Origin: Jaapia argillacea MUCL 33604
Taxonomy: Eukaryota > Basidiomycota > Agaricomycetes > Jaapiales > Jaapiaceae
Reading direction: 5' to 3'
DNA length: 64,000 nt
Assembly: GCA_000697665.1 (NCBI GenBank)
Contig: KL197725.1
Location: 694,132 to 758,131 of the forward strand
Shown here: one piece after another, positions 16,011 to 38,173 of the stretch
Numbering within the stretch: position 1 is the first letter of the stretch
How the letters are laid out: each line of letters opens with the position of its first letter
Made by a program: the position numbers and the translations under genes
The notes under the pieces: generated by a model
The model's database searches: none
What the model was told of the DNA's origin: nothing
What the model saw: only the letters and a program-made list of their open reading frames with translations

Positions 16011-18906
16011 ATGACAAGCCGTAGGAGCAATGGCGAAGAAGTCCGCGTGGGCGGTGAATTCGTGGAGAGTCCGACGAACGAGACGGGAGACGAGACTACC
16101 TCTGGTTCGTTCAGTCCGTGTTCAACTGTTCAGTGGTTTCATCGTTCGGGTTTCATTGTCGATTGCCTTTGTGTAACGAGCACCGTCCCGGCTGTGCCGC
16201 CGTTGGCCACAAGCTCCGCGATGGTCTTCATGTTGTCTCTTGCACCTATTCCAGACATCAGATGAAGGTTTCTAATACTTGTCTTCGATTCAGGCGAATC
16301 GCAGCTCCCAAATCCCAAAGTCACGAGGTAATCCATCCCTACTCGACGCTGTATTATTTCTTCCCCGCTGACGGTCCACTCGTAGCCTTTTGCATGCGTA
16401 TGGTTCTTTTCGAGGATGGCAAACGGAGCCAAGTTCTACACACCAGAACCAAGGCAGCGAAGGGCCGATCGTCGAATTTTTTAGATTATTTCATGATGTC
16501 ATCTCCAGCGACACCGATAGACAAGACATTCCGTCTCTGCTGGGGGAAGACGCTACGGTCTTCCTTGAATTTCTGTTTCAGGTGACTATCCACGTTGCAT
16601 CATCAGCGATATCTTCTTTTGAAAATGAGTTATCTCTTAGATCATGAAAGTATGGTCAATGTTCAAGATGTGGACCCAAACGGATGACTTGAGGACGCAA
16701 ATCCACCGTCTGGTGGTGAAGCTCTCTCGGAAGTCTTCCTTGGTCCCACAATCACTTGCCATCACTGGCGTTGAAATACTGCGAGAAAATCATGTATATG
16801 GCGGATTTGGTATCATCCATCTAGGCTCCTACCTTGGGCAGAAGGTAGCCGTGAAACAGTTACGGGTTGCAGTGAAAAATCAGCCCGTGCAGCAGCAAAA
16901 ACACCAACGGGTAAGATCTGAAGGTGCTCATCTTACCTCCACGTTCTAAATCTATCTCGCAGAGGTTCTGCCAGGAGGCCCTCATCTGGTGCTCGTTGGA
17001 ACACCCAAACATCCTACCCCTGCTTGGGGTCGACTTTGTGACATTTGGCTCATATCCAGCGATGATCTCTCCGTGGATGGAGAATGGAAATATTTTGGAT
17101 TATATTGACAGCCGTGATCTACAAGTTTCCCAGGTCGACAATATGGTGTGTTCCTTTTCCTTATCTTGTCGCGACCTTGCTTTATTGGATCATTCCTAGC
17201 TATTTGAGATTTCCAAAGGTCTGGAGTACCTTCACGATCGTTATATCGTTCACGGTGATCTTCGTGGGGTGAGCGCAGTCATCGCACTCGACTAATTCGT
17301 CACTGAACACGTCCGCCAGATGAATATCCTTGTCGATCCTCAAGGCCACGCTCTAGTTGCAGATTTTGGGTTATCAATTATCCCTGAGATCACCCTGAGT
17401 GCGTCCCCATCCAAAGCAGGCTGCACACGGTGGAACGCACCTGAATTGGTGGACTGGACGAGACGAGGCAGTCGTTCTTATGCCACAGATGTTTACTCTC
17501 TTGCCATGGTTGCTCTTGAGGTATGTGGGAGTTCGATCGAGAACCACCCATTTTGGCGGCTAAAAGAGTAGAATGCTATAGATCTATACAAGGGACGTCC
17601 CTTTCGCACACTTGGAAAACGATATGGCAGTTGCGCTGTCAATTTTGGCCAACAACAGGCCAAACCGTTCTGAGGTGGGAGGGGCAATGTCCGATGAGAT
17701 TTGGGCCCTGGTCCAGGATTGCTGGGCTCAAGGGCCTTCTGATCGGCCTACCATCACGCAGATTTGCGAAAGGTTATCTGCGCTCGACCATTCGCCAGAA
17801 CAACCCATATCCAGGTCCTTGACCCCCCGCCCTCCGACAGCCTTCCAGCCGACGGTCATTGTTGAACCCGACCGTCACATTGAACGTACCATTCTCAATG
17901 AAGACACATTGGATTCACCCACGGTTACTATCCTCACCTTTTCTGCTTCTGATCCACCTCCCGGAGATAGGCGAACACAGCATTCTGTATCAGAAGAAGA
18001 AGAAGAAACTCTTCTAAGCTTCCCATTCGACCCTCCTATGAATCAAGACCCAACACCCTCGTCGGAGCGAACTACTACCCCAGTTCCGACACCCAGTGTC
18101 TCTGAACCCCCCACAACATCTTCGCCCGCGGCCCCAGTATCCCCCACCCCTACCGCGGCCCCTCGCCCTCGACGCCAAAGCGACCCAGGCCTACATACAG
18201 GCAGTGGTTCCTCCGGTGGAGGCATCACGCCACCCATTACACCTGCTCGCAGCGAACCATCTTTACCTCCACCAGAATACTCGCCGCCGCCGAGTCCAAG
18301 CGACATTAGAATTGTTTTCCTGCCCTTGGTGAACCAAATAGCTGCCCAAAAGAGGATCGAGGTCAAATACGCCGATGTTTTCTCTGGCCCCCCTCATGCT
18401 CCTATCTGGTCTGTCAAGTGTAACAGTGAGAACACTCCAATTTTGTCGAGGGTCTGTATCTGACTCAATGAACTTTCCCAGTCGATGGCAGGGATGTGGG
18501 TGAGGGACGTGGGGTGACCAAGCAGGGGGCGAAGGAGACAGCTGCCAAGCAGGCCTATTATGCTCTGAACTGGAACCATTGTGCACTCCCCAATGGGCAA
18601 GGGTCGGGCCTCCTCCAAAACCAACCTTTTCTTCCGCGGTTTAATCAAATGGCCGCACAGCGCCGACATGAAGTTGAGTGGCTACCAACAAATTCTGGAC
18701 CTCCTCATGCTTTGAGATGGTTCATCACCTGTAGTGGTGAGAATATCCGTATGTTTGTTGTCTGAATCATCTCGGCTGATATCACGTTTTATGAAGTCGA
18801 CGGGCACCCTATGGGATATGGCCAGGGCCTTACCAAACAAGCTGCCAAGGAGGACGCCGCGGAGCAAGCCTTCTCCGCGATGGGATGGAGTACACGTGAA
18901 GACTAA
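16011..18906 (+). CDS. TKL-like protein kinase with two C-terminal dsRNA-binding domains, copy 1
   Basis: This is the most divergent member of the array. An acidic N-terminus (MTSRRSNGEEVRV...) leads to a helical region (FFRLFHDVISSDTDRQD) and the kinase domain, about 16770-17790. The domain has glycine loop GGFGIIHLG, VAVK lysine, catalytic loop HGDLRGMNIL, ADFGLS (DFG) and NAPEL (APE). A Ser/Thr/Pro-rich linker follows, then two dsRBDs: VFLPLVNQIAAQKRIEVKY...GPPHAPIW...GEGRGVTKQGAKETAAKQAY (about 18310-18575) and FLPRFNQMAAQRRHEVEW...GPPHALRWF...GYGQGLTKQAAKEDAAEQAF (about 18640-18895). GPPH-x3-W and the K-x2-AK-x2-AA helix are dsRBD hallmarks. Catalytic residues look intact. The intron inside dsRBD1 and the N-terminal exons are not resolved. 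A role as dsRNA sensor is inferred. Confidence 0.75.
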
Positions 18907-19849
18907 CTCACGTTTGCTCAGATGAACGTAACGCCACCGAAAATGGCCAACTCGTGTGGCATCTCGGATACGATGGATCACAGATGACTTGAGAAGTATT
19001 GACGTATGCTACCGCCATCAATGTACCACTAACATATGCAGATATTTCCTACTGTTGTACCGTGTGCTTGTATTGTCGTTCGATTGAATAGAGTGACATG
19101 TTTGAATGGACAGCCTTGATTTGAAAAGAAATGCAAAGTCTCAGTCATACCGCGATAACCTGGGTCAACATGTTACAACGACATTTCAAACTGTTGGGTA
19201 TGTGAACCAGAAATCCTTCGGTAAAGTGCTGCACCTCAGAACTGCGAGGAATGAGGAGGAGTTATGGTATGCCGCTTTGGTCCGACGAGGGGGCTAACGT
19301 GAAAATTCAGTCGTTTGCTGGAAGCCAGTCAGATTCGGCCATAATGAGCGAGAAACGAAAGTATTCACCATAACTACTGGCTATTACAATCAACCCTGGG
19401 ACTGTGGTTGACCAATGTATGATGAAATTGAACAGAGCTCAGGCAATTGAAGTTCGGCTACGCACCCCAATAAATTTCCTACGAAACATCATGCGTTTCT
19501 GAAGTCCACCCATGAATGAACGCACGCGCGGCTATCACGGATGATTTGGAAGATGTCGAGCGCCATTGCAACAATAACTATCCCGCAATCCACCAATAAT
19601 CTTGATGATAACGCCATAACCTCGCAGGGGTACCCTCCAGCATATAGGTTGGCCTCTCCAGGGTTTCGTGCTTCCTCAAAGGAGTGGAAGATCGTCCGTC
19701 GGCTCCGTAGATCACAAGTTGGGTAGATCTTCGCGTTCTGCATAGTAGGCTCCTGCGCTTCGATTACTGACTCGGCATGGTCTAATCATCGGTGGCAGCC
19801 GAACATGGAGAGAGATGAAGGCAAAGTAGGTGCAGTCTCCAGGTCCGCA
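18907..19849. other. Spacer between kinase copy 1 and repeat unit 2
   Basis: About 940 bp with no supportable gene. It has no counterpart in the other units, which marks the left border of the ~6-kb tandem duplication near 19850. Confidence 0.5.
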
Positions 19850-20030
19850 GGTCATAACGACCTTAACCAAAGTTCGAACCTTGAGCGACGACGGCTTCTG
19901 GTGCTCCGAGTGATCCTGTGAAGCTGTCGACGATTCAACGTCCGCAGCACACACAGAACCTCACTTTTATGATTTATTTCAGCGACTTTCAGCGATATGT
20001 AAACGGTTCCAGAGAACGTTTCTCAGAGGA

Positions 20031-20118
20031 TATAAAAGAGCGAGTAAGCGCTTGGTGATGTTTATGACTTTCACAAATATTCATCCACAGACAACAACGA
20101 TATTGAGAAAGTCATAAA
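20031..20118 (+). promoter_or_regulatory. TATA plus perfect 12-nt inverted repeat upstream of kinase copy 2
   Basis: TATAAAAG at 20031-20038 is followed by TTTATGACTTTC at 20061-20072 and its exact reverse complement GAAAGTCATAAA at 20107-20118, a 34-nt spacer. The arms are kept in unit 3 without change and in unit 4 with one mismatch. They may be a paired binding site or a hairpin at the 5' end of the mRNA. Confidence 0.6.
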
Positions 20119-20928
20119 AATCCTCAATGCCTGAGATGAAAGTAGGGCTCTTTCAAAAACTCAAAGTGTTCAATCTACTGGGATCGAATAGAAATGGGAG
20201 GAGGCTAAGAGAAAAGTGGCATCAAGGGAACGAGTCCATATGTAGTGCATTGACTGACCTGCCATGGAGCGGTACGAACACGGATGCATCGGTACAGCAG
20301 TAACCATGCACGAGGTGAGTGGCCATCCATCGCTTCAAGTTACTAGCTGCCCGAAGTCGCACTTGATAATCCTTGGTCCCAGATCCAACTTTAAAACAGG
20401 TTGCTTGCACCAAGTTGAAGAGGCCGCCCTTGGTTCGAGGCATGAAACCGTTGAAGATGGAAGAGCGAGGCAAGGCATCGCGTCAACGAAGTGGGGCAGA
20501 TCAGAGCGGGAATGAAGCTTTACTGTAGGACCAACTTTGGTCAGCGGCCGCCACAAGCCAAAAACCTCGCGTTCTTCTCTGTTCTTCTGCTCTGGATCTC
20601 AATTTCTGCTCATCACTATCTCATGGAGATGCTCCTCTATCCAAGAAGGTATCGGCATCCAGGATCCAGTTCAGGGCCATCTCCAAAATGGAGGTGCCTC
20701 CAACAAGGTATGTGAGCGCTGGGCGGCGTGGAAACAACCTTCATTCAAGGTCTAATCATAATCTCATCACATCTTTGGTTCTTTCCAGCGGGTAAACAGG
20801 AGACAGGAAGGATTTAACGTTCTGACACTTCGAATGCCTGGGCGCACACGTCCGCTCACTCTCCTCCATCCATTTATTGTCCAGAGGCTCAAGGTTTCTC
20901 GAAAGCGCGCATTGGAGTCAACGAGGAC

Positions 20929-23835
20929 ATGCCGCTCCGCCACAGACTTGACGACGAGCATGAAAATGGCAGTGGCACGGAGGCCCAGGGACCAAGTGGC
21001 GACACCAGTGATGGTACGTCCAATAAATTTGACTCCAGTTGCCTCCTCAAATCATCGTCGTTGCGTCAAGTCGATTCATCCACCGCGCGTGGCCTTGTAG
21101 AGAGGTGATTTTAGTCGTCTGTATGCTATCGCTACATCGCCACTCACCTCTGGAACGTGGACAGGTTGCTGACTGTCTATCGAACTTTGCGACGGTGGCA
21201 ACTATCGCGTGCCAGACCTTCCGACGAAGATAACGACGAGGCTCTCAAAGACTTCGTGGCGTTGTTCCAGGTGGTTGTTGGAAGCAGCCAATGTCGCCAC
21301 GCCGTGTTGGATTTGCAAGGAGAGGAGACAATCTCCATCCTTGATCTTCTCTTGCGGGAACGTCTTTTCTTGTAGGATTATGTCGAGCGCCCAGCTGAAT
21401 GATGTCACAGATAGTGGATGAATGGCTGTGGCTTCTGCCATTCTCAAACAGACAGTTTCTCGAAAAACATTCCCATCGACTTCTTGTCCGGCGTTCTCAG
21501 GGAGACCACAGTGATTTCCCCTCTTCTTTATTCATCGCTGGCCTCGAGTGCGACAATGACCCCGTCGGGGGTGGAGGATTTGCCAACGTACATCGAGGTC
21601 GCTATTCTGGGGAACCAGTGGCGGTCAAATGTGTCAGGCTGTTTGCACAATCACCGGGAACGATTCTCAAGACGAAACAGGTGCTTTGATGTCCCTCGCA
21701 TTTCGTCTGATTATCTGACATAGCTTTTATGAAGGCCATTTTGGCGGAAACAATGATCTGGCGTTCCTTGAAGCACCAATATATCTTACCACTAATCGGG
21801 GTCGACTCAACGCGCTTTGGTGGCACCGTGTGCATGGTATCGCCATGGATGGATTATGGAGATATCAACCACTTTGTGTCCGCTCTTGACCTCCCAGCAG
21901 AGCGTGTCAATATTCTGGTAAACCCCGATCACTTCCTGTCTTTCTTTCTTCCGTCTTCATACCGTTTTATAACAGCTGTTCGAAGTGGCGAAGGCTTTGG
22001 AGTACCTCCACTATCGAGACGTTGTCCACGGTGACCTCCGCGGTGTGAGTTTTTCGACTGTCTTAATGCGAGTGGCTCTGACCTCAACCCAGGGGAACAT
22101 TCTTATAGATGATGGATGTCATGTTCGCGTCGCCGATTTCGGAATGTCAACACACGTTGGTGTCACACAACCGTCTAACCTGGGAGGGACTCTTCGATGG
22201 ATGGCTCCAGAGTTGTTTTCGACCGGCCCCGTCAATAGTCGGACTGCTGCAGTGGACATATATGCATTCGCTATGGTGTGCTACGAGGTCAATCTCTTCA
22301 GTTTGTATGGTCCGCAAGCGTTGACCATAATCCAATATTGTGGAAATAGGTCTACCTCAGAAGTTATCCATTCCCAGACATTGTGGCGGAGCTCCAAGTT
22401 TTGGCGAGAGTGGCAAATGGGGAGCGACCTGCGCGTTCCTCGTTAGTGTCACGCGGAAGAAACATGTCGGATTACTTGTGGGGCCTTGTCAAGCGATGCT
22501 GGGCATCATCACCGACTTCTCGCCCTTCAGCGCCCTCAATTTGCGCGGAGTTGGCCTCATTTGGGCGGGAACGACCATCCGGAGAAACTTCAGGATCTGC
22601 GGAGGGAGTGATGGGTCAAGGAAGAGGGGAAAGCCCTCCACTGTCTGCCGCCGGAGGAGTGAGTTTGAGTGCCGAGTTCCGTCCAGAGTCAACTTCGTCA
22701 TTATCTGCGAGGAGTTTTGAGGCGAATCACGATGTAACTCGAACCGTCACTGCCTTCGATCGACACACCATCCCTTCTTCTGGTTCACTCAGTTCCGAAC
22801 CGCCCATTTCTTTGCACCGTCAATCGAGCCCGCGACCCGCACCCCAGACGGCGGACACAGATGGTCACGATTCGGGCAGTCTTTTCGGAGAGAGTCTCTC
22901 CCAATCCCCTTCTACCACACAAGAATCTACCCCCAACTCAAGCAGCTCTACCAACTCGCGAATGTCACAATCGACAGGAACCCATCCTCCATTCTCGGAA
23001 AGCCAGGCCTCAGATACCTATTCGTCAACTGCATCTCCTACTGCATCTTCACCTACGTCCCCGACCTCTCCATTAGCGGGGCCAAACTACCTATGGCATC
23101 TCAACGAGAAGTGTGTTCACTCGGGAGGGAAGATCACCATCGAGTGGGAGAACGACCACGAGGGTGAGGCCCACATGAGCGTACATCACGCGAAGTGTTT
23201 CGGTGCGCCCTACATCTTTCGAATTATACTCAAAACACAAACTCACGGCTCTCTCTGCCTAGTAAAAACCCACGACTCTCCACCAGAACTACTCGGCGAA
23301 GGGAAAGCAAGACGCATTCAAGCTGCTAAGGAGCTGGCGGCGCGTCAAGTTTATCAGTCAATTGATTGGTCTCGATTTCCTAGCACCTCGAGACGGTCAT
23401 CATCAGCTGCTGAATCAACCTCTTCTCAGTCCTCACTACCGTCTGCTTCTTCACCCCCTCCTATATCAGAAAGGACTTCTCGACGGCCACCTCCCTATTT
23501 GCCTGTGTTTAACGAAATCGCTTCGAAGACAAAGTGCATCGTTGATTACCTCACAGAACCAGCTGGAAGCACTACTCAGGATTGGGTCATCCGATGTGAA
23601 GGTATGAGTTTTCGGACCCTCCTCCATCTTCACTTATTCACCCGTCTGGGCAGTTAACAGAGCATTTCGCGGACGAGGGATAGGACGTACTAAACAGGAA
23701 GCAAAAGAACTGGCAGCGAAGGAAGCGTACTTCAGCATGGGGTGGCACCTTACGAATGAAGCATGTACGTTTGTTTTGCCCTCCTGTCGCAACTACCTCC
23801 TCACAAATGATTTAGCCAGGGCATCATCCACCTGA
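20929..23835 (+). CDS. TKL-like protein kinase with two C-terminal dsRNA-binding domains, copy 2
   Basis: From the chosen ATG a Gly/Asp/Glu-rich leader (MPLRHRLDDEHENG) is spliced toward a helical region (DFVALFQVVVGSSQCRHAVL) and the kinase domain (about 21550-22560): VGGGGFANVHRG, VAVKCVR, HGDLRG/GNILIDD, ADFGMS, RWMAPELF. A long Ser/Thr/Pro-rich linker follows, then dsRBD A (YLWHLNEKCVHSGGKITIEW...LLGEGKARRIQAAKELAARQVYQ, about 23088-23375) and dsRBD B (LPVFNEIASKTKCIVDY...RGRGIGRTKQEAKELAAKEAY, about 23500-23745). The last exon ends RASST and a stop at 23833. The junction between the helical exon and IVDEWLW has no good canonical donor in phase. Translation could start instead at MMSQIVDEWLW (21399). 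No lesion in kinase or dsRBDs was seen. Confidence 0.75.
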
Positions 23836-24059
23836 TTGAACACGGCTTGTCTCCGCACGTTTAGGATTACGAGAATAGCCACATGAACAACTTCAGAGGA
23901 ACGCAGGAGGATGTTCAGTATGTATGACTACTGTTACATTACACAAGACGATTTCATTACCCTGTACTCATCAAGGACTCATACATGTATTACATCTCAC
24001 CTCCAATGTATAAATCAACAAATGACCATTAGCCTCTTCATCTCCAAATCTAAATCGAC

Positions 24060-25720
24060 GTCAGCCAAGCTCATGACCTTCCGTGTCCTACTCCCTCTTC
24101 GTCTACCTCCCAGGCTGGGACCCGTACTCATGCTGCCAGAGTCCAGAGTCCAAAATTTCCACGTTCCACGACGATACCGTCCGTCTTGGCAACACTATTG
24201 TGACCCACCACATCTTCGCTCCTCGCAGGTAGAGGCACCTCGTGTTCCTGGTCGTCCCAGAATGGAGGTATGTCGACAGCAACAGCAAAACCACTCCAAA
24301 TAAACTGCCCTCAGCTCTGGAGACGCCAACCACTTCCCATTCCGCCGAGGCAGTCAGCGCAACTATTTCACGCAGAGTGCGTTCTCGCGAATCGAACATC
24401 GCACGCATCTACCCATCCAATGAAGAAAAGGGATGATCAATCACGACTGGAAAGATAATTAAAGCGGGAACACTCACCATCATGACCATCTAGTGCTCAT
24501 TGGCACTAACCTTGCCCAGATTCGGAAGCAGGGGGGGGGCTCCCTCGGACAGCATCACGGCGTCCTAACTATCATCTTCAGGTCGGTCTCCACCACCTTC
24601 AATCGCACCCTTATTTTCTGTTGGATCGGTTTCCGCGGTCTCGTCGACCATTTGCATCAATACTACCAATTTCCTCACAGGCCAAGAGCAAAATATGCAG
24701 CGACTAACTTCGTGTCAGGGATTGCTGATCATCTGAGCTGGAGCAGTATACTGTTCAAATGGGGTGTTCGCGAGCATCAGCCAAGCTCAAGGTTAGACAA
24801 AGAACGGTAGCCAATGTACAACAGAAAGAATTCATGAATAATGAAAACCACGTATTTACGGAAGGAACCGAAGACGAATGAAAGATCAAGATGAGCACTC
24901 ACCCCTTTGTAAAAGCGTCAGGCCAACCATGCGTAATAGCCCTCAACAAAAACAACAGGAAGTTCCCCAGTGGGAGTCGGGGGCTGGGGTGTGAAGAAGT
25001 CGTGTTCTAAACCAAACAAAGGTTGCGACCGTATCGACTGTTAGGATCGATGAGAGTGGCGATGGGAGAACAGGCGAACCTTGGAAAGTAACGACACCCT
25101 TTTCCAACCACTCTGGACATCACCCTTTCCATACCTGCATGTATTCAGTACACATAAAAAATATTAGCACCCCATCGTCACGTTTGTAGCCTCCTGGACA
25201 GATGAACAAGACTTGCAGTTCGACCCAGCCCTACAACTAATTCTCTACCTATGGACGATGAATCTCAACCCCGACGATGCGAACCTCGTCGCGAGAGACA
25301 CTTGTGGTACCGATAGTGTACAACCTGCTACATCTATGACGTGACTTGAAGGTGGGCCATGGGAGTGACGCCCAGTCGAAAGCTTTAGGGGTTGGGGACA
25401 ATGTGAATTTCACAAAGGCGGTGAAGGGATACGAAGGACTGACCATCCTCCACCCCTCATCACCTGCTCCCAACTACCACTTCCGACCATCGCGTGCTGA
25501 ACTTCTTCATCCACCTTATGCTCCCATCTTCCAACCACGCGAAGAACTCCGCGACCGTCCCATATGCAGTGTTGAATGGTGATCCGTTGGGACGTGTGAA
25601 TGGGGTTTTGATGCGATAGAATCAATTGTAGCTGATGCTATTGCAGGTGTCTTGGAAGCTGATGAACCGTAGGCCACAAGTTCAATTGGCGACGGCTTCC
25701 ATCGAGTGCCAGGATCCTGG
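24060..25720 (-). pseudogene. O-methyltransferase 3' fragment, copy a
   Basis: A decayed, 5'-truncated copy of the O-methyltransferase gene that is intact at 38174-41403. Recognisable pieces on the minus strand are ASKPHSHVPTD near 25590, KAFDWASLP near 25380 and RTLREIVALTASAEWEVVGVSRAEGSLFGVV near 24330-24400. The glycine-rich SAM-binding motif (VIDVGGGIG in the parent) is disrupted near 25340 and reading frames are broken repeatedly. Everything 5' of the middle of the gene is missing at the repeat junction. It was carried along with the kinase duplication and is not expected to encode an enzyme. Confidence 0.75.
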
Positions 25721-26023
25721 GATTTGGCGAGTTGGGTGCAGTTCTTCAATGGCGGCAGACCAACATAACAGATAAGGGGACGGCGCCTTACAGATCCCTG
25801 GATTGCAATGACCTTAATCAGAACCTTTCAACGACAAAGCTAGCGATCCCAGCTCGCTTCTGGTGCTCCGGGTGATCCTGTGAAGCCATCCACGATTCAA
25901 CGTCCGCGGCACTCGCGAAACCTCACTTTTGTGACTTATTTCAGTGGTCTTCAACGACACGCAAACGGTTCAAGAGAACAGTTCTTCAGAGGTTGTAAAA
26001 GAGCGAGTAGGCGATTGGTGATG

Positions 26024-26081
26024 TTTATGACTTTCACAAATTCTCATCCACAGAGCATAATGATATCGAGAAAGTCATAAA
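26024..26081 (+). promoter_or_regulatory. Inverted-repeat module upstream of kinase copy 3
   Basis: TTTATGACTTTC at 26024-26035 and GAAAGTCATAAA at 26070-26081 form a perfect 12-nt inverted repeat with a 34-nt spacer. The TATA position is degraded here (TTGTAAAAGAG near 25994 instead of ATATAAAAGAG in unit 2), which could weaken the promoter. Confidence 0.55.
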
Positions 26082-26877
26082 AATCCTCAAAGCATGGAAG
26101 TAGGCTCTTTCAAAAACTCAAAGCGTTCAATCTACCGGGATAGAAACGCTGGTGGGATGTGGTTAGGACGAAGGTGGTGTTAAGGGAATATATATCCACA
26201 CGTAGTGGATTGACTGACCTGCCATCGAGCAGCTGATACATTGCATGGCTCGCGATACGGAACCAGCAACCGTGCAGGATCATGAGGTGAGTGGCCACCC
26301 ATATTTCGGAGTCCCAGAATCGCGCCCTATAATATTTAGTTATAGATCCGACTTCAAAAAGGGTGCTTTTATCCAGCTGGAGAGGCCATCCTTGATTCGA
26401 GGTGTAAAAACGATGGAAGGTGGAAGTATATGACAAAAGATTATCCGCATTAATGAGGTTGATCGGTCGGAGCGGGAAAGAGGTCTGACCATGGTTCCAA
26501 CTTTGGTCAGCGACTGCCACAGGCCAAGGCCACACGACCGTCGTTCTTGTGCTCTGGCTCTCAATTTCCTGCTCATCTCATGGAGAAATTCCTCTATTCA
26601 AGGTACTGCATCGGATGGTATCCAGCCAGTTCAGGGGCCATCTCCAAAATGGAACTCGAATCAGGTATGTGGGCGCTCGGCGGCGTGGAAACAACGTTCA
26701 TTCAAGGTCTAATCATAACCTCATCACATCTTGCATTCTTTCCAGCCGGTAAACAGGGAGGACTCAACGTTCTGACACGTTGAATCCCTGGGTCCATACG
26801 TCCGCTCACTCTCCTCCCTCCATTTATCGACCCCTGACCCAAGTTCCTGGAGAGTGCAAATCGGAGTCGACCAGGAC

Positions 26878-29222
26878 ATGCCACTCCGCCACAGACTTGA
26901 CGACGAGCGTGAACACGGTAGCGGTGCGGAGGCCAAGGGACTAGGTGGCGACACCAGTGATGGTACGTTCGACAACTCAAACGTCAGTTGCTTCCTCGAA
27001 TAATCGTCTTTGGGTCAAGTCGATTCGTCGACCGCGCGTACGCTTGTTGAGAGGTGATTTCGTTCGTGTTTTACTCTGCCACCACCTCGCCACTCACCTC
27101 TGGAACGTGGATAGGTTGTTGACCGTCTATCGAACTTTACGGCGGTGGCAATTATCGCGTGCCAGACCTTCCGACGAAGACAACGACGAGGTTCTCAAAG
27201 ATTTCGTGGCGTTGTACCAGACAGTTATTGGAAGCCGCCCATGTCGCCATGCCGTATTGGATTTGCAAGGAGAAGATACAATCTCCATTCTTGATCTTCT
27301 CTTGCGGGAATGTCTTTTCTTGAGTGATTACGAGGAACACCCTACTGAATGATCTCACAGATAGTGGATGAATGGCTGTGGCTCATGCCTTTCTCCAATA
27401 GGCAATTTCTCGAGAAACACACCCATCGACTTCTTGTCCGGCGTTCTCAAGGAGACCATAGTGATTTCCCCCTGTCCTTGTTCATCGCTGGCCTCGAATG
27501 TGACAATAACCCAGTCGGGGCTGGAGGATTGGCCGACGTTCATCAAGGTCACTATGCGGGGGACCTGGTGGCGGTAAAATGTGTCAGGCTGTTTGTAAAT
27601 CCGCCGGATAGGCTTCTCAGGGCCAAACAGGTGCGATCATGTCCCTTGCATTCCGTCTGATTTCCTAACATATCCTTTATGAAGGCCGTTTTGGCTGAAA
27701 CAATGATTTGGCGTTCGTTGAAGCACGAATATATCCTGCCACTAATCGGGGTTGACAAATCCCGCTTTGGTGGCACCGTGTACATGGTATCGCCGTGGAT
27801 GAAGCATGGCGATATAAACAATTTCGTGTCTACCCACGACCCTACACCTGAGCGAGTCAATGTTCTGGTAAGTCCACATCACTAGCTCTCATCCTTTCTT
27901 CTGTCTTCATACCGTTTTATAACAGCTCTTCGAGGTGGCGAAGGCTTTGGAGTACCTCCACGATCGAGATGTCGTGCACGGTGACCTACGGGGTGTGAGT
28001 TTTCCTACTCTGTCTTGTTCCGAGTGACCCTGACCTCAACCCAGGGAAATATTCTAATAGATGATGATTGCCATGTTCGCGTCGCGGACTTCGGAATGTC
28101 AACATTTGCTGGTGTATCACAACCATCTAATTTGGGAGGAACTCTTCGATGGATGGCTCCAGAGTTGTTTTCAACTACTCCCACCATTAATCGCACTTCT
28201 GCGGTGGACGTATATGCGTTCGCTATGCTGTGCTACGAGGTCAATCTCTCCGATTTGTATGATCCGCAATCGTTGACCGTAATTCAACATTTGTGGAAAT
28301 AGGTCTATCTCAGAGGTCATCCCTTCCCAGCCCTTATTTTGGATCCCCAAATCTGGACGGGAGTAATCAATGGGGAGCGACCTGAGCGTTCCTTATTGAT
28401 CTCGTGCGGAAGAGACATGTCGGAGGACTTGTGGGGCCTTGTCATTCAATGCTGGGCCTCATCACCGAGTTCTCGCCCTTCAGCATCCTCAATCTGCGCA
28501 AAAATGCCCTCATTTGGGCGGGAACGACCATCCAGTGAAACTTCAGGATTTGCGCGGGGAGTAATGGGCCAAGGAAGAGGGGAAAGCCTTCCACTGTCCG
28601 CCGCTGGAGGAGTAAGTTCACCTGCCGAGTTTCGTCCACAGTCAACTTTGTCGTCATCTGTGAGGAACTTTGAATTGGACGAAGATGTAACTCGGACTAT
28701 CACTGCCTTCGATCGACGCAGCATCCCCTCTTCTGGTACACGTGATTCCGGAACCTCGCCTCCGCCCCTCTCTTTGCCTCATGAATCCAACCCACCCCCA
28801 GCATCCCACACGATGGACAGGGATGATCGTCATTCGCGAAGTCTTTTCGGAGAGTGTATCTCCCAATCCCCTCCTACCACGCGAGACTCCGCCCATAACT
28901 CAAGCAGTTCTGCCAGCACGCAAAGCTCACAATCGACAGGACCCCATCCTCAATTCCCCGAACACCAAGCCTCGGATACCGATTCTACAACTGCAACTCC
29001 CACTGCATCTTCACCTACGTCCCCGATCTCCCCATCAGGGGGCCAAAACTACCTATGGCACCTCAACGAGAAGTGCGTTCACTCAGGCGGGAAAATCTCC
29101 ATCGAGTGGGAGTACAACCATGAGGGTGAGCCCCATATGGGCGTGCATCACGCCATGTGTTTCGGTGCGCCCACCGTTTTCGAATTATACTCAAAACACA
29201 AACTCACAGCTCTGTCTGCCTA
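26878..29222 (+). CDS. TKL-like protein kinase copy 3, dsRNA-binding part lost
   Basis: The chosen start (MPLRHRLDDEREHG) matches copies 2 and 4. The kinase domain (about 27490-28510) looks complete: VGAGGLADVHQG, VAVKCVR, HGDLRG/GNILIDD, ADFGMST, RWMAPELF. The Ser/Pro-rich linker is also open. dsRBD A starts (YLWHLNEKCVHSGGKISIEW, from about 29050). A one-base difference near 29172 relative to copy 2 shifts the frame, so translation ends at 29222. The distal half of the domain survives out of frame up to about 29335. dsRBD B is absent, replaced by foreign sequence from about 29342. The product would be a kinase without a working dsRNA-binding module: either a pseudogene in progress or a sensor-less kinase. 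Confidence 0.65.
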
Positions 29223-29754
29223 GTAAAAACCCACAACTCTCCGCGGAAACTACTCGGCGAAGGGAAAGCAAGTCGCAAGCAAGCTGCTAGGGAGCTGGCA
29301 GCGCGCCAAGTGTATCAATTAATTGATTGGTCTCGATTTTCGATTCTACCTGTTTCTGGCTGAACCCCCGTGGGAAAATGTCAAGAACATCACACTTCGG
29401 GTCGTTACAGGGAATAACCACGTGAATCGGTAGCGGCGCCCGAGCGCCAGTGTCCCCGACTCCTTGTGTCTAATAGTTGGTGGAGCTTGCGACACCGAAT
29501 ATACCAGGTCGTCCAAAATCCCGTTGATGACTCAGCGACCCGGCTTGCGGTTGTTTGGCCGCGAGCCATGCGTGAGAAGTATATACTGAAACGAGTCAAC
29601 CGTGAGCTATGCGTGAGACTCTTCTGCCCGTTTCGAAAACTCTCAGTATCAGGCTCTGATTCGGAGAATATACACCTCATCTGAGTCATTCTTACTGAGG
29701 GTCTATTCCAGATTAGATACCTCATTCACAGACAGCCCTATTGACTTGGTTATG

Positions 29755-30835
29755 TTTTTATCAATTGGCCCTCTTCCTCTTTCCTCCCTCTCCTTCTCCC
29801 TTATTCCCTGCCATCTGCTCCCTTCCTCCCCACCATTGATTTGTTCCCTTATACTTTCCTCCACCCTCCATCTCCTCTATCCNNNNNNNNNNNNNNNNNN
29901 NNNNNNNNNNNNNNNNNNNNNNNNNNNNNNNNNNNNNNNNNNNNNNNNNNNNNNNNNNNNNNNNNNNNNNNNNNNNNNNNNNNNNNNNNNNNNNNNNNNN
30001 NNNNNNNNNNNNNNNNNNNNNNNNNNNNNNNNNNNNNNNNNNNNNNNNNNNNNNNNNNNNNNNNNNNNNNNNNNNNNNNNNNNNNNNNNNNNNNNNNNNN
30101 NNNNNNNNNNNNNNNNNNNNNNNNNNNNNNNNNNNNNNNNNNNNNNNNNNNNNNNNNNNNNNNNNNNNNNNNNNNNNNNNNNNNNNNNNNNNNNNNNNNN
30201 NNNNNNNNNNNNNNNNNNNNNNNNNNNNNNNNNNNNNNNNNNNNNNNNNNNNNNNNNNNNNNNNNNNNNNNNNNNNNNNNNNNNNNNNNNNNNNNNNNNN
30301 NNNNNNNNNNNNNNNNNNNNNNNNNNNNNNNNNNNNNNNNNNNNNNNNNNNNNNNNNNNNNNNNNNNNNNNNNNNNNNNNNNNNNNNNNNNNNNNNNNNN
30401 NNNNNNNNNNNNNNNNNNNNNNNNNNNNNNNNNNNNNNNNNNNNNNNNNNNNNNNNNNNNNNNNNNNNNNNNNNNNNNNNNNNNNNNNNNNNNNNNNNNN
30501 NNNNNNNNNNNNNNNNNNNNNNNNNNNNNNNNNNNNNNNNNNNNNNNNNNNNNNNNNNNNNNNNNNNNNNNNNNNNNNNNCTCTCCCTACCCCCTCCTCC
30601 TCCCTCCCTCCTCTCTACCTATACCTCCATGATCCTTCCCTTACTCTTCCTTTCCCTATCATACTTCAACTCCCACTCTCTCATCCTCACACTCTCCTTT
30701 CACTTACTCCCTTACCCCCTACTCTGCCCCATGGTCATTTACCTACCTCTTCCCCCCCTGTCTTCTTCCTGCTTTTCCACTCACCTCTTCTCTTCCCTTT
30801 CTTCTGATGGCTTCTCCCCCACATCAGATTTGTCT
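29755..30835 (+). repeat. Polypyrimidine (C/T-only) tract around the gap
   Basis: About 125 bp before and 250 bp after the gap are nearly pure C+T on the plus strand (CCTCTTCCTCTTTCCTCCC and similar), with occasional A and rare G. The long open frames over it are an artefact of low complexity. Such mirror-like homopyrimidine DNA can form triplexes and is a usual cause of assembly breaks. Confidence 0.8.
29883..30580. other. Assembly gap, 698 N
   Basis: Unknown bases inside the polypyrimidine tract. The true length may differ from 698. Confidence 0.99.
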
Positions 30836-31407
30836 CATGTACTGTAATGCTTGTAATGCATTTACCCTCTCTGATTATCACTGTTTCCAGCATTTGAAAG
30901 AAATCCACAGTTTATATCCAGGTAGGTCATCAAAGCTAGAATTCCAAGCTCCACGACAGATGAGGGTTTACCCTCATAAAATACATAGTTTTTCCATGAC
31001 CACGCCTTCTCGCAATGCATGATCACCCCCAACACGAATGTTTTTAGTTACGCAACACCAGCTGAATACCATTAGATACAAATCAACAGGCTTGGGATAG
31101 GTATACAACGAGTCTGGGATTTACGCGTGGTTTTGGCCATGAGGTACAATGTGCACGAAAGGGCGACATCAGATGTTTGGGATCTCTTCGACCTCCCCAC
31201 ATAGCCCTTCCCCCATCTACCATATAACGACACCCGGTCGGAAAGAGGACATGCTGTTCGAACACTTTCGCGACCGTAGAGGACTGTTTGAGCATGAGCG
31301 GATTTGGCATAGTGACTTGAACGATGAACAGGATGAATGCTGAACGGATGAACGATGATATGGGCAAACTCGGGGCATCCGATGGTTTCATAGGATTGTC
31401 CAAGTGA

Positions 31408-32055
31408 TCACAGAGCGCAACAAAAGTGCCCGACAACACCTGAGGCATGGGACTCCACAAGAAAATACCCATCAACAAAACGGCAAACAACCGAGCCCAG
31501 CACCTGGAAACGTCTACACTTCACACAATCATGAGGACGGACAGTCAAATATTGACCCAACCAAAGCTCCACGGATGCAGAAGTGTCCCAAATGAACGGA
31601 AAGAACGAAGGGAAATACAATGGATCATAGAACAAGGGATACTCATCGATGTCATGCCACTCGTCTTGGACAGGAACCGAAAGCTCTGAATCCAAAACCC
31701 GGGCAACAGAACAGGGCTGCTTGGGTGCGAGAGATATGGACATTGAACTGGTTGAACGTTGAACAGATGAACTTGTGGACACGAATATCTGAGGCGTTGT
31801 GGATAATCTGTATGCGTAGAGGAATGCCACAAAGATGTCGATGCATGAACCAATGCATCCGCGAGCCCAGACACAGCTGAGAGTGATCCAAATGACGTAG
31901 GATCTAGACCACTTTCCCACGACTTTTCGTCTGGTACAGAGTGGCTGTCGTTTGCGGGGTACAGAGGCCCTTTCCTCACTTTGTGAGGAGTCGGGGACGA
32001 CATCACTGGCAGAGAAATGGAGGACGTTCAGCCTGTACAGCGTACATGACAACAT
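31408..32055 (-). other. Unrecognised 215-codon open frame in the insert
   Basis: A continuous minus-strand frame, MLSCTLYRLNVLHFSAS..., crosses the right edge of the insert. Its middle has a hydrophobic segment (SYVIWITLSCVWARGCIGSC) and an acidic, aromatic stretch (DEWHDIDEYPLFYDPLYF). I recognise no family. A second minus-strand frame at 31083-31490 overlaps it. The frame starts in the conserved unit sequence, so it may be fortuitous. Confidence 0.25.
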
Positions 32056-32219
32056 CAGACGATTTCATTACCCTGTACTCATCAAGGACTGATACATGAT
32101 GTATTATATATCTCATCGCCAACGTATAAATCAAGAAACAGTCATTCCCAGTTACTCGGGCACCTCCCTCGTCGCTACCCTAGACCAACCAAATGTCGAC
32201 CGTCTTGATCAGCGCCAAG

Positions 32220-33940
32220 CCTCTTCATCTCCAAATCTAATCGACATCAGCCAAGCTCATGACCTTCCGTGCCCCACTCCCTCTTCGTCTTGCCAATCCT
32301 TGTTCGCCTCAGGCCTCAGGTCGGACACCCCTGCAAACTCGACCAAAATCGGCAGTTCAAAGCTTCGACCCAAAAGTAACTCCCATGCTGGGGCCGGTAC
32401 TCATGCTGCCAGAGTCCAAGGGTTCCACAACGATACCGTCCGCCTTGCCAAAACTATTGTGACCCAACAACATCTTCACTCCTCGCAGTTAGAGGCACCT
32501 CGTGTTCCCGGTCGTCCCGGAATGGCGTATGTCGACAGGAACAGCAAAAACCACTCCAAATAAACTGCCTCGGCTCTGGAGACGTCAACGACTTCCCATT
32601 CCGCTGAGGCGATCAGCGCAACCATCGCACACATCTGCTCATCGAATGAAGTCAAAGTATGATCAATCGTGACTTGAAAGGGAATCAAAGTGGGAACGCT
32701 TACCGTCACGACCATCCAATGCCCATTGGCGCCAGCGTTGCCCAGATTCGGAAGCAGTAGGGGCCCCCTCGGGCAGCAACGTGGCGTCCTGACTGTCATC
32801 GTCAGATCGGTCTTCACCACTTCAAAAACCACCTTCAACCACACACTTGTTTCTGTCGGATCGGTTTCCGCGGTCCCGTCGACCATTTGCATCAATACCA
32901 CCAATTTCGTCACGGGCCAAGGGCAAATATACGGTGACTAACTTCGTGTCAGGGATTCCTGATCGTCTGAGCTGGAGTAGTATACTGTTCAAATGGGGTG
33001 TTCACGAGCATCAGCCAAGGTCAAGGTTAAACAAAGAACGGTAGTCGATGAAAAACAGAACGAATTCATGAATAATGAAAACCACGTATTTGCGGAAGGA
33101 ATCGAAGATGAATGAAAGGCCAAGATGAGCACTCACCCCTTTGTTAAGGCGTTAGGCCAATCATGCGTAATAACCCTCAACAAAAACACAGCAGGAAGCC
33201 CCCCAGTCGGAGTCGGGCGTTGGGGTGTGAAGAAGTTGTGTTCTAAACCAAACAAGGGTGGCGACCATATCGACCTATTAGGATCAATGAAACGGGCGAT
33301 GGGAGAACAAGCGAACCTTGAAAAGTAACGACACCCTTTTCCAACAACTCTGGACATCACTCTTTCCATACCTGCATGGATTCAGTGCATATAAAAAATA
33401 TTAGCACCCCATCATCACGTTCATAGCCTCCTGGACAGATGAACAAGACTTGCGATTTGACCCATATCTACAACTACCTCTCTATCCTGGACGATGAATC
33501 TCAAGTCCGACGATGCGAACCTCGTCGCGAGAGACACTAGCGGTACCGATACAACCTCCTACATCTATGACGTGACTTGAAAGTGGGAGTGACGCCCAGT
33601 CGAAAGCTTTAGGCGGTGGGGACAATGTGAATTTTACAAAGGCGGTGAAGAGATACGAAAGACTGACCATCCATCGCCCCTCCTCACCTACTGCCAACTA
33701 CCACTTCCGACCATCGCGCGCCGAACTCTTCATCCACCCTATTTTCCCATCTTCTTCCAACCACGCAAAGAACTCCGTGACCGTCCCAAATGCAGTGTTG
33801 AATGGTGATCTGTTGGGACGTGTGAATGAGGTTTCGATGCGGTAGAATCAGTTGTAGCTGATGCTATTGCAGGTGCCTTGGAAGTTGATGAACAGTAGGC
33901 CACAGGTTCAGTCGACGACGGCTTCCATCGAGTGCCAGGA
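32220..33940 (-). pseudogene. O-methyltransferase 3' fragment, copy b
   Basis: Second decayed copy of the O-methyltransferase 3' two thirds. Visible pieces are SKPHSHVPTDHH near 33820, PKAFDWASLPLSSHVIDVGG near 33560-33610, FFTPQRPTPTGGLPAVFLLRVITHDWPNA near 33140-33240, LLLPNLGNAGANGHWM near 32720-32770 and SAEWEVVDVSRAE near 32590. The SAM motif is better kept than in copy a, but frames are broken and all 5' exons are missing. It lies convergent to kinase copy 3, as in the other units. Confidence 0.75.
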
Positions 33941-34249
33941 TCCTGGGATTTGGCGAGCCGGGCGCGGTTCTTCAATGGCGGCAGACGAACATAACAGACA
34001 AAGGGGCGGTGCCCTACAGATCCCTGGGTCGCAATGACCTTAACCAGAACCTTTGAGCGACAAAGTTAGCGATCTCAGCTCGCTTCTGGTGCTCCGGGTG
34101 ATCCTGTGAAGCCGTCCACGATTCAACGTCCGCGGCACTCGCGAAACCTCACTTTTATCAAGTACTTATTTCAGTGGTCTTCAACGATATGCAAACGGTT
34201 CAAGAGAACAGTTCTTCAGAGGTAGTAAAAGAGCAGGCGATTGGTGATG

Positions 34250-34307
34250 TTTATGACTTCCACAAATTCTCATCCACAGAGCATAACGACATCGAGAAAG
34301 TCATAAA
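34250..34307 (+). promoter_or_regulatory. Inverted-repeat module upstream of kinase copy 4
   Basis: TTTATGACTTCC at 34250-34261 and GAAAGTCATAAA at 34296-34307 form an 11-of-12 inverted repeat with a 34-nt spacer. The TATA position reads GTAGTAAAAGAG, weaker than in copies 1 and 2. Confidence 0.55.
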
Positions 34308-35102
34308 AATCCTCAAAACATGAAGGTGGGCTCTTTCAAAAACTCAAAGTGTTCAATCTACCGGGATAGAAACGCTAGTGGGATGTGGTTAGGGCAAAGG
34401 TGGTGTCAAGGGAATATATGTCCACACGTAGTGGATTGACTGACCTGCCATGGAGCAGCTGATACATTACATGGTTCGCGATACGGAAGCAGTAACCATG
34501 CAGGATCTTGAGGTGAGTGGTCACGTATACTTCGCTCACTTTGGAATCCCAGAATCGCGCGGGATAATATTTAGTTGTAGATCCGACTTCAAAAAGGGTG
34601 CTTTCACCCAGCTGGAGGGGCCATCCTTAATTCGAGGTATAAAAACGATGGAAGGTGGAAGTATGACAAAAGTTTATCCGCATCAACGAGGTTGATCGGT
34701 CGGAGCGGGAAAGAGGTCTGACCAGGATTCCAACTTTGGTCACCGGCTGCCACAAGCCAAACGTCGTCCTTGTGCCCTAGCTCTCAATTTCCTGCTCATC
34801 TCATGGAGAAATTCCTCTATTCAAGGTACTGTATCGAATGGCATCCAGTCAGTTCAGGGGCCATCTCCAAAATGGTACCTCGAACCAGGTGTGTGGGCGC
34901 TCGGCGGCGTGGAAACAACGTTCATTCAAGGTCTAATCATAATCTCATCACATCTTGCATTCTTTCCAGCCGGTAAACAGGGAGGACTCAACGTTCTGAC
35001 ACGTTGAAACCCTGGGTCCACACGTCCGCTCACTCTCCTTCCTCCATTTGTCGACACCTGGCCCAAGGTTCCTGGAGAGTGCAAATTGGAGTCGACCAGG
35101 AC

Positions 35103-38010
35103 ATGCCACTCCGCCACAGACTTGACGACGAGCGTGAAAACGGTAGCGGCGCGGAGGCCCAGGGACTAGGTGGCGACACCAGTGATGGTACGTTCGACAA
35201 CTCAAACGCCAGTTGCTTCCTCGAATAATCGTCTTTGGGTCAAGTCGATTCGTCCACCGCGCGTACGCTTGTTGAGAGGTAATTTCGTTCGTGTTTTACT
35301 CTGCCACCACCTCGCCACTCACCTCTGGAACGTGGACAGGTTGTTGACCGTCTATCGAACTTTACGGCGGTGGCAATTATCGCGTGCCAGACCTTCCGAC
35401 GAAGACAACGACGAGGTTCTCAAAGATTTCGTTGCGTTGTACCAGACAGTTATTGGAAGCCGCCCATGTCGCCATGCCGTATTGGATTTGCAAGGAGATG
35501 ATACAATCTGCATTCTTGATCTCCTCTTGCGGGAACGTCTATTCTTTCGGGATTGTGTCGAGCGCCCAGCTGAATGATGTCACAGATCGTGGATGAATGG
35601 CTATGGCTTCTGCCGTTCTCGAACAGACAGTTTCTCGAAAAGCATACCCATCGACTTCTTGTCCGGCGTTCTCAAGGAGACCATAGTGACTTTCCCCCGT
35701 CCTTATTCATCGCTGGCCTCGAGTGCGACAATGACCCCGTCGGGGGTGGAGGATTTGCCAACGTACATCGAGGTCGCTATTCTGGGGAACCGGTGGCGGT
35801 CAAATGTGTCAGGCTGTTTGCACAATCGCCGGGAACGATTCTCAAGACGAAACAGGTGCTTTCACTTCCCTAGTATTTCGTCTGATTATCTGACATACCT
35901 TTCACGAAGGCCATTTTGGCTGAAACAATGATCTGGCGTTCATTGAAGCACGGATATATCTTACCACTAATCGGGGTCGACTCAACGCGCTTTGGTGGCA
36001 TCGTGTGCATGGTATCGCCATGGATGGATTATGGAGATATAAATCACTTTGTGTCCGCCCTTGACCTCCCAGCAGAGCGTGTCAATATTCTGGTAAACCC
36101 CGATCACTTCCTATGATTCATTCTTCCGTCTTCATACCATTTCATAACAGCTGTTCGAAGTGGCGAAGGCTTTGGAGTACCTCCACGATCGAGACGTGGT
36201 GCACGGTGACCTCCGCGGTGTGAGCCATCCGACTTTCTTAAAGCGAGTGACTCTGACCTTAACCCAGGGGAACATTCTTATAGATGATGGATGTCATGTT
36301 CGCGTCGCCGATTTCGGAATGTCAACATTTGTTGGTGTTACACAACCGTCTAATCTGGGAGGAACTCTTCGATGGATGGCCCCAGAGCTGTTTTCAACTG
36401 ACCCCGTCAATGGTCGCACTGCTGCAGTGGATATATATGCATTCGCTATGGTGTGCTACGAGGTCAATCTCTTCGATTTGTATGGTCTGCAATCGTTGAC
36501 TAAAATCTAATTGTGGAAATAGGTGTACCTCAGAAGCTATCCATTCCCAGACATTGTTGCGGAGCTCCAACTTTTGGCGAAAGTAGCAAAGGGGGAGCGA
36601 CCTGAGCGTTCCTCGTTGATCTTATGCGGAAGAAACATGTCAGATGACTTGTGGGGCCTCGTCGAGCGATGCTGGGCAGGATCACCGACTTCTCGCCCTT
36701 CGGCATCCTCAATCTGCGGGGAATTGGCCTCATTTGGGCGGGAACGACCATCCGGCGAATCTTCAGAATCTGCGGAGGGAGTGATGGGTCAAGGAAGAGG
36801 GGGAAGCCCTCCACTGTCTGCCGCCGGAAGAGGGAGTTCGAGTGCCGAGTTCCGTCCAGAGTCAACTTCGTCATTATCTGCGAGGAGTTTCGAAGCGAAT
36901 GACGATGTAACTCGAACCGTCACTGCCTTCGATCGACGAGGCATCCCTTCTTCTGGTCCACTAAGTTCCGAAATACCAGCTGCACCTCCTTCTTTGCGCC
37001 GTCAATCGAGCCCGCGACCTGCATCCCAAACGGCGGACACAGATGACCACGATTCAGGCAATCTTTTCGGAGAGAGTCTCTCCCAATCCCCTTCTACCAC
37101 ACAAGAGTCTACCCCCGACTCAAGCAGTTCTACCAACTCGCGAAGGTCACAAACGACAGGGAACCATCCTCCACTCCCGGAAAGCCAGGCCTCAGATTCC
37201 TATTCCACAACCACAACTCCTACCGCATCCCCACCTACGTCCCCAACCTCCCCAGTGGGGCCAAATTACCTATGGCATCTCAACGAGAAGTGTGTTCACT
37301 CGGGAGGGAAAATATCCATTGAGTGGGAGGACGACCATCAGGGTGAACCCCATATGGGCGAGTTTCACTCCAAGTGTTTCGGTACGCCCACCGCTCTCGA
37401 TGTATACTCAAAAGAAACTCACGGCTATCTCTCCCTAGTACAAGTCCACAACTCCCCGCCAGAACTACTCGGCGAAGGGAGAGCACCGCGCAAGAAAGCT
37501 GCTAGGGAGCTGGCGGCGCGCCAAGTTTATCAGTCAATCGATTGGTCCCGATTTCCCAGCATCTCGAGACGGTCATCATCAGCTGCAGAATCAACCTCTT
37601 CCCAATCATCACTACCGTCTGCGTCTTCTCCCCCTCCTATTTCGGAAAGGATTTCTCGACGGCCACCTCCCTATCTGCCTGTGTTTAACGAAATCGCTTC
37701 GAAGACAAAATGCATCGTTGATTACCCCACAGATCAAATTGGAAGCCCTACTCAGGATTGGGTCATCCGATGTGAAGGTACGAGTTTTCGACTCTCCATT
37801 TTCACTTTCTCACTTGTCTGGATAGTCAACACAGCGTCTCGCGGACGAGGAACAGGACGTACCAAACAGCAAGCAAAAGAGCGAGCGGCAAAGGAAGCCT
37901 ACTACAATATGGGGTGGCACCTGGCGAATGAAGCAGGTGCGTGCTTGTCTTGCCCTCCTATTGGAATTATCTCATCACAAAGTGATTCAGCCAGGGCATC
38001 ACCCACCTGA
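35103..38010 (+). CDS. TKL-like protein kinase with two C-terminal dsRNA-binding domains, copy 4
   Basis: This is the best-preserved copy. Start MPLRHRLDDERENG is followed by an intron and the helical exon (KDFVALYQTVIGSRPCRHAVL). The kinase domain is about 35740-36730: VGGGGFANVHRG, VAVKCVR, HGDLRG/GNILIDD, ADFGMST, RWMAPELF, then a CW-x-SPTSRPSASSIC tail. A ~170-residue Ser/Thr/Pro-rich linker with SQSP-type sites precedes dsRBD A (YLWHLNEKCVHSGGKISIEW, GEPHMGEFH, LGEGRAPRKKAARELAARQV; about 37262-37545). dsRBD B follows (LPVFNEIASKTKCIVDY, GRGTGRTKQQAKERAAKEAY; about 37666-37916). An intron at 37777-37828 (GTACGA...GATAG) splits dsRBD B at the same place as in copies 1 and 2. The stop is at 38008. 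MMSQIVDEWLW at 35574 is an alternative start. All catalytic residues are present. Confidence 0.78.
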
Positions 38011-38173
38011 TTGAACACGGACTTCCTGTCTCCGCAAGTTTAGAGTTCACATGGACGACCTCAGAGGAACGCAGGACGTTCAGTCTGTACATGACAACAC
38101 AAGACTATTTCATTACCCTGTATTCATTAAGGACTCATACATGATGTATTATATCTCATCGACAATATATAAA

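Follow-up and report, generated by a model that had tools for sequence, protein, structure and literature searches.

Tandem kinase genes with C-terminal double-stranded RNA-binding domains in Jaapia argillacea: candidate dsRNA sensors

The window analysed here, 64,000 nucleotides of the Jaapia argillacea MUCL 33604 genome (C17:694132-758131), carries between 16.4 and 38.0 kb four tandem kinase genes on the + strand, the spliced models of which are free of internal stops. In these genes the kinase domain is followed by a C-terminal tail with modules of the double-stranded RNA-binding domain (dsRBD) type, and two more genes with the order kinase-dsRBD-dsRBD were found at a second locus, on contig C23. 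Judged by sequence, the six fusion genes are candidate sensors of double-stranded RNA (dsRNA), with the two parts of the vertebrate antiviral kinase PKR in reversed order and with a different kinase; we favour, with some reserve, the reading that they encode dsRNA-regulated protein kinases. With two genome loci (C17 and C23), the fusion is wider than an earlier note, made from the letters of this DNA, could see. This was the one fungal genome searched (43.7 Mb, 95 contigs). Introns were placed by hand; all of those in the four window genes are GT-AG, of 48-63 nt. The gene models are as follows.

16372..18906, + strand: copy 1, kinase-dsRBD-dsRBD gene (open spliced frame; Pfam)
16372-16581, 16641-16910, 16963-17145, 17200-17268, 17320-17520, 17582-18425, 18482-18736, 18797-18906 (stop), + strand: exons of copy 1
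18311..18573, + strand: dsRBD 1 of copy 1, split by the intron 18426-18481 (35.0 bits to PF00035; PKR dsRBDs in PDB)
18625..18888, + strand: dsRBD 2 of copy 1, split by the intron 18737-18796 (29.8 bits to PF00035)
21402..23836, + strand: copy 2, kinase with weak dsRBD 1 and dsRBD 2 (spliced frame; Pfam; module scores)
21402-21680, 21735-21917, 21976-22044, 22093-22287, 22350-23202, 23263-23601, 23654-23764, 23816-23836, + strand: exons of copy 2
27349..29363, + strand: copy 3, kinase with a single tail module (spliced frame; Pfam; self-BLAST)
27349-27630, 27685-27867, 27926-27994, 28045-28239, 28303-29164, 29224-29363, + strand: exons of copy 3
35574..38010, + strand: copy 4, kinase with weak dsRBD 1 and dsRBD 2 (spliced frame; Pfam; PDB search)
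35574-35855, 35910-36092, 36151-36219, 36268-36462, 36523-37381, 37439-37777, 37826-37936, 37991-38010, + strand: exons of copy 4
17582-18425, 22350-23202, 28303-29164 and 36523-37381, + strand: exon with kinase end, linker and half of dsRBD 1 in copies 1-4, respectively (uninterrupted reading frame)

The long exon that follows the last kinase intron runs from the end of the kinase C-lobe through an S/P/T-rich linker into dsRBD 1, of which it encodes the first half. As one unbroken exon spans the sequence from the kinase end to dsRBD 1, the fusion of kinase and tail is independent of splice prediction; the arrangement is the same in all six gene models (window copies 1-4, C23A and C23B). Even the unspliced frame of copy 4 (36523-38010) already matches PF00035 (1.5e-6). 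The 5′ ends of the models are less firm. The start codon of copy 1, upstream of 16372, is provisional, and the ATG at 16011 proposed in the earlier note is possible via an additional intron. In copies 2-4, the exon preceding the kinase (LDLQG...ILDLLLRE; window positions 21300-21420, 27260-27370 and 35490-35590) does not share the reading frame of the kinase exon, and a hand search for a canonical in-frame splice gave none. The N-termini of these three copies are provisional for that reason, translation from an ATG at or near 21402, 27349 or 35574 being the likeliest.

The tails had been read as dsRBDs from their hallmarks, and a search of the spliced proteins with hidden Markov models agrees with that reading. 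Using the dsrm family (PF00035; curated cut-off, 23 bits), E-values of 1.4e-14, 4.4e-10 and 1.1e-10 were obtained for copies 1, 2 and 4, and a match under the cut-off (0.0092) for copy 3. Both modules are present in copies 1, 2 and 4, as had been claimed, but module 1 falls under the cut-off in copies 2 and 4: scores for modules 1 and 2 are 35.0 and 29.8 bits in copy 1, 19.1 and 32.8 in copy 2, and 22.2 and 31.7 in copy 4. Copy 3, for which no tail had been reported, is not tail-less and keeps module 1 (22.5 bits). The GPPH or GEPH loop described for the modules holds in part: GPPH occurs in copy 1 only; in copies 2 and 4, module 1 has GEAH or GEPH but module 2 has GSTT or GSPT instead. In known dsRBDs, the KxxAK motif of helix 2 contacts RNA; in our alignment, each of the five dsRBD 2 modules retains it.

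Among solved structures, PKR comes first. The tail of copy 1 matches both PKR dsRBDs (6.7e-15), that of copy 4 finds only two sequences at E ≤1, both PKR (5.6e-7 and 1.2e-5), and that of C23A also has PKR on top (1.8e-9). A profile built from 15 dsRBDs of the genome matched PKR at 4.7e-24 and then TARBP2 at 2.6e-14, with Loquacious, R2D2 and Staufen also among its PDB matches. Since few structures have been solved, we take this ranking to mean that the tails are, by sequence, PKR-like dsRBDs, and it says nothing of descent from PKR. An alpha-beta-beta-beta-alpha fold is implied by homology to solved dsRBDs; the AlphaFold values for the copy-4 tail (pLDDT, the predicted local distance difference test, 50.6 and 50.8) refer to an intron read-through sequence with 16 or 19 intron-coded residues per domain.

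The claim of four neighbouring genes with complete kinase motifs stands, with VAVK, HGDLRG, DFG and APE each present in the spliced proteins of all four copies; the G-loop is weaker in copy 1 (YGGFG) than in copies 2-4 (GGGGF or GAGGL). Pfam matches to PK_Tyr_Ser-Thr are of 1.6e-40, 5.8e-38, 5.6e-37 and 1.2e-36 for copies 1-4. When the copy-4 kinase was compared with PDB, the best 60 of 339 matches comprised one EGFR chain, at the top, followed by RIPK1, B-Raf (with fusions), RIPK2 and CTR1; no eIF2-alpha kinase was among these 60. All six fusion kinases also display three traits of the fungi-specific TK-related (FslK) kinases: a GXR(L/M) motif with Pro in fourth position (GERP, NNRP, PPRP or PDRP), the lack of AARN (RGMN, RGGN or RAVN instead), and replacement of the first Pro of the APE motif by C, T or N. 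These traits are common to the published FslK family (PMC3937382, partial text). The kinases are thus best described from the PDB matches of copy 4 and the motif traits, on which the grouping rests, as TKL-like with agaricomycete FslK traits and as other than that of PKR, in line with what the earlier note had suspected. At least 163 exons in the genome match PF07714, other kinase groups included, and the fusion genes have exon boundaries in common with many of their closest kinase loci.

Homology to PKR over the whole protein was rejected, the best 60 of the 339 PDB matches placing the kinase in another stock. The genome does contain an eIF2-alpha gene (C26, 1.1e-22), and nothing marks its product as a substrate; with no eIF2-alpha kinase among these 60 matches, the sequence lends no support to a shut-off through eIF2-alpha.

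Copies 2-4 lie in a duplicated segment.

19894..38190, + strand: tandem segmental duplication (self-BLAST)

By self-BLAST, 19894-23378 and 25856-29339 are 80% alike, 19894-24031 and 34082-38190 are 84% alike, and 24104-29339 and 32377-37554 are 85% alike. We calculated the ratio of non-synonymous to synonymous substitution (dN/dS; Nei-Gojobori method, own script) for the pairs of copies 2/4, 2/3 and 3/4 and for C23A/B, the last being a rough estimate as dS is of 1.2-1.4. In that order of pairs, dN/dS is 0.21, 0.32, 0.38 and 0.23 for the kinase and 0.27, 0.21, 0.28 and 0.35 for the tail; for the linker it is 0.52, 0.56 and 0.50, and not measurable in C23A/B. Purifying selection keeps the kinase and the tail, and is laxer on the linker. 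With hand-placed splice sites, all 15 spliced dsRBDs share the codon position of an intron, which lies between strands 2 and 3. The E-values, this shared intron, the selection and the second locus with the same domain order put the tails beyond chance.

A stretch of 1.5-2 kb between the kinases is found in triplicate (24104-25665, 32010-33891 and 38062-39984; 73-85% alike). An O-methyltransferase identity for this repeat was dropped, as no Pfam match was obtained in the three open reading frames (ORFs) scanned. Downstream of copy 3 (29340-30570), the sequence is CT-rich, with a run of Ns from ~29884.

The C23 locus was found in a protein search with a copy-4 exon. C23A and C23B match Pfam kinase profiles at 4e-47 and 3.6e-45 and dsrm at 2.1e-20 and 1.5e-14; the models are provisional at both starts and at the end of C23A, and the C23A model requires one GC-AG intron. 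A third dsRBD pair on C23 (~210.7-211.6 kb) adjoins a run of Ns of ~7.5 kb, within which its kinase, if any, would lie. Dsrm scores above the cut-off were obtained in whole-protein scans not only for both C23 proteins but also for two other kinds of protein. Contig C6 holds three tandem stand-alone genes that lack a kinase; each begins with a proline-rich stretch and goes on to two dsRBDs of the type seen in the tails (the first gene, the one spliced and scanned, gave 7.7e-17).

~482.0-482.8, 487.3-488.2 and 493.8-494.6 kb of C6: dsRBD-pair genes (dsRBD similarity)

It is possible that these stand-alone proteins are regulators or decoys of the kinases. At C2:1007541-1009176, a very weak RNase III-like stretch precedes a dsRBD pair of the same type (dsrm 5.7e-18). 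An RNase III was rejected here, and the stretch is RNase III-like at most, with 17.8 bits to Ribonucleas_3_3 against a cut-off of 35 and no appearance in the PF00636 genome search. It may be non-catalytic, since its signature reads DRLAELGERVL where active RNase III enzymes have a conserved LGD.

Searching the genome with the C2 pair gave matches on C2, C6, C17 and C23, and two on C11 at 0.002-0.003 that we took as noise. The exon-wise genome search with PF00035 did not list the C17 fusion genes, because an intron splits each dsRBD; it returned four other places with more distant dsRBDs (C1:895114, C2:1850592, C2:548468 and C4:1166514). By eye, C4:1166514 resembles a mitochondrial ribosomal RNase III-like protein. 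No dsRBD was found at 39 other kinase loci (38 distinct, ~3.2 kb each), the check covering the next 1.5 kb for the nine found via the C-lobe and part of it for the remaining 30.

As to the origin of the fusion, the kinase trees were made within the genome. The tree took 30 of the 39 other loci (31 rows; eight were dropped for having fewer than 150 residues and one was a duplicate entry). In its 37 rows, the six fusion kinases fall into three groups (copy 1; copies 2-4; C23A and C23B) with a poorly resolved fork, and a single clade of fusion kinases is not rejected (approximately unbiased test, p 0.149). The dsRBD tree is largely unresolved (15 rows, 68 columns). The data are compatible with one joining of kinase and dsRBDs as well as with several. 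In a bacterial and archaeal collection, 30 pattern matches yielded no confirmed relative.

Taking the known systems into account, the nearest likeness is with PKR (EIF2AK2), the eIF2-alpha kinase that dsRNA activates in vertebrates, which also has two dsRBDs and one kinase in one protein. PKR, however, carries its dsRBDs at the N-terminus, whereas they are C-terminal in all six fusion models, the reversal that had been read from the window; and PKR is an eIF2-alpha kinase, whereas the fusion kinases show TKL/FslK traits. Because the kinase is not that of PKR, has FslK/TKL traits and stands in reversed order with the dsRBDs, the pairing looks convergent, as first proposed from the letters. TARBP2, Staufen and Loquacious have tandem dsRBDs that belong to the fold family of the fusion tails, but no kinase domain; PACT is a tandem-dsRBD adaptor protein. 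PKR is described as vertebrate-specific and GCN2 as the sole relevant kinase of that type in fungi (PMC12394161, partial text), EIF2AK2 being reported from bony fish upward (PMC5851622, partial text). Fish PKZ, like the fusion genes, joins a nucleic-acid-binding domain to a kinase but, unlike them, has Z-alpha domains and not dsRBDs, and is an eIF2-alpha kinase (PMC2291453, partial text). FslK kinases mostly lack an additional domain, whereas the fusion kinases carry dsRBDs; 16 of 241 FslK kinases have some extra domain (PMC3937382, partial text), and a dsRBD could be among those of the 16.

The main text of a survey of kinase-associated domains in fungi contains neither dsrm nor double-stranded nor RNA binding (PMC2838846), and in a review of fungal immunity PKR and RNA sensing are absent and dsRNA appears once, about TIR domains (PMC10197012). 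No fungal kinase with dsRBDs was found in the open PubMed Central literature (best matches, at the level of title and start of abstract; protein databases, outside this search, may list such architectures). In one fungus, dsRNA elicits a sequence-independent stress response with nuclear accumulation of Hog1 and reactive oxygen species, the sensor being unnamed in the available part of that paper (PMC11762700). By sequence, the fusion genes would encode a kinase that binds dsRNA but comes from a stock unrelated to that of PKR.

Under the reading that we favour, dsRBD 2 (both dsRBDs in copy 1) would hold on to dsRNA, whether it comes from a mycovirus or a retroelement or is formed by sense and antisense transcripts. 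Binding of at least two molecules to the same duplex would bring their kinase domains together for mutual phosphorylation; the kinases would then phosphorylate further proteins that trigger a stress or defence response. In copies 2-4 and C23, the weaker dsRBD 1 may aid dimerisation more than RNA binding, and a stress or cell-death pathway would be a more likely target than eIF2-alpha. Such proteins would act like the sensor half of PKR, with kinase and sensor joined independently. In all this we infer dsRNA binding, activation and an antiviral role.

Several points weigh against dsRNA-regulated kinases. Four of the seven window modules pass the PF00035 cut-off, the three failures being module 1 of copies 2-4 (19.1-22.5 bits), and the match of the copy-4 tail to PKR runs via dsRBD 2 only. 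Both helix-2 lysines of dsRBD 1 are present in copy 1 only; the first is Ile in copy 2, and the second is Arg in copies 3 and 4, Glu in C23A and Ser in C23B. The scores under the cut-off in copies 2-4 and the restriction of both lysines to copy 1 are reasons to doubt an RNA role of dsRBD 1 in every fusion gene except copy 1 (five of six), and copies 2-4 may have one RNA-competent dsRBD instead of two. Copy 3 lacks dsRBD 2, its homology to the other units stopping at ~29339, shortly before the model itself ends. The splice donor of the N-terminal exon seems to have been lost in the common ancestor of copies 2-4: by eye, the C23 donor is cga|gtgcgtct and the same position reads GA in these copies. 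Furthermore, dsRBDs may serve solely cellular RNA or protein contacts. Neighbouring ORFs read by eye gave no hint of defence (the 10-kb flanks are unannotated); some of those in the window resemble, by eye and with no search, ARG5,6, ORC5-like and Nop4/RBM28-like proteins. These likenesses and the FslK traits, described chiefly in Agaricomycetes (PMC3937382, partial text), are why we take the host to be an agaricomycete fungus. Finally, the genome has parts of RNA interference (RNAi), namely RNA-dependent RNA polymerase (RdRP) and Piwi genes, and RNase III domains in two pairs whose arrangement is Dicer-like. Given these parts, defence can be explained without a further dsRNA sensor, and the kinases would supplement RNAi and not stand in for it.

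The same parts bear on a rather unlikely alternative, in which the dsRBDs anchor a kinase, constitutively active or under some other control, to structured cellular RNA or to RNAi proteins, so that this kinase phosphorylates RNA-binding or silencing proteins and dsRNA is an address and not a switch. Such tethering would suit a genome with RdRP, Piwi and paired RNase III domains, in which the same type of dsRBD pair, alone at C6 and behind the RNase III-like stretch at C2, looks like a general adaptor; TARBP2, Loquacious and R2D2, found among the PDB matches, act with Dicer. Yet the closest solved relative of the tails is PKR and not these Dicer partners, and the RdRP, Piwi and RNase III matches of the genome searches all lie outside C17 and C23. 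We consider it improbable that the tails are mainly modules for protein contact or dimerisation without RNA binding, the kinase answering to a partner, possibly the double-dsRBD proteins of C6. Some dsRBDs of Staufen, TRBP and PACT no longer bind RNA, and the low scores of dsRBD 1 in copies 2-4 and the loss of the GPxH loop in dsRBD 2 of copies 2 and 4 would fit; the retention of KxxAK in both copy-1 dsRBDs and in dsRBD 2 of five out of five genes argues against it. That adjacent kinase and dsRBD genes were read as one, or that these are decaying duplicates or pseudogenes, is very improbable: copy 3 without dsRBD 2 and next to a run of Ns, the out-of-frame exon of copies 2-4, the hand-placed introns and the end not reached in the C23A model could suggest it, but kinase end and dsRBD 1 lie in one exon in six out of six genes, the models have no internal stops, dN/dS is 0.21-0.38 in kinase and tail, and there are two loci.

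RNA viruses are common in fungi. Extending the reading of dsRNA-regulated kinases, we tentatively suggest that some mushroom-forming fungi may have an RNAi-independent dsRNA-sensing kinase system, made from their own expanded TK-related kinases and a PKR-like dsRBD pair; with two sensor loci, stand-alone dsRBD-pair proteins as regulators or decoys and perhaps the C2 protein, it would mount a stress or death response to dsRNA of mycoviruses or transposons. The fusion genes are a named, testable fungal candidate for a dsRNA-gated kinase outside animals. If this is true, the PKR solution would have evolved twice from different kinase stocks, and the fusion genes would provide a possible input signal for one branch of the large, functionally obscure kinase expansion of the Agaricomycetes.
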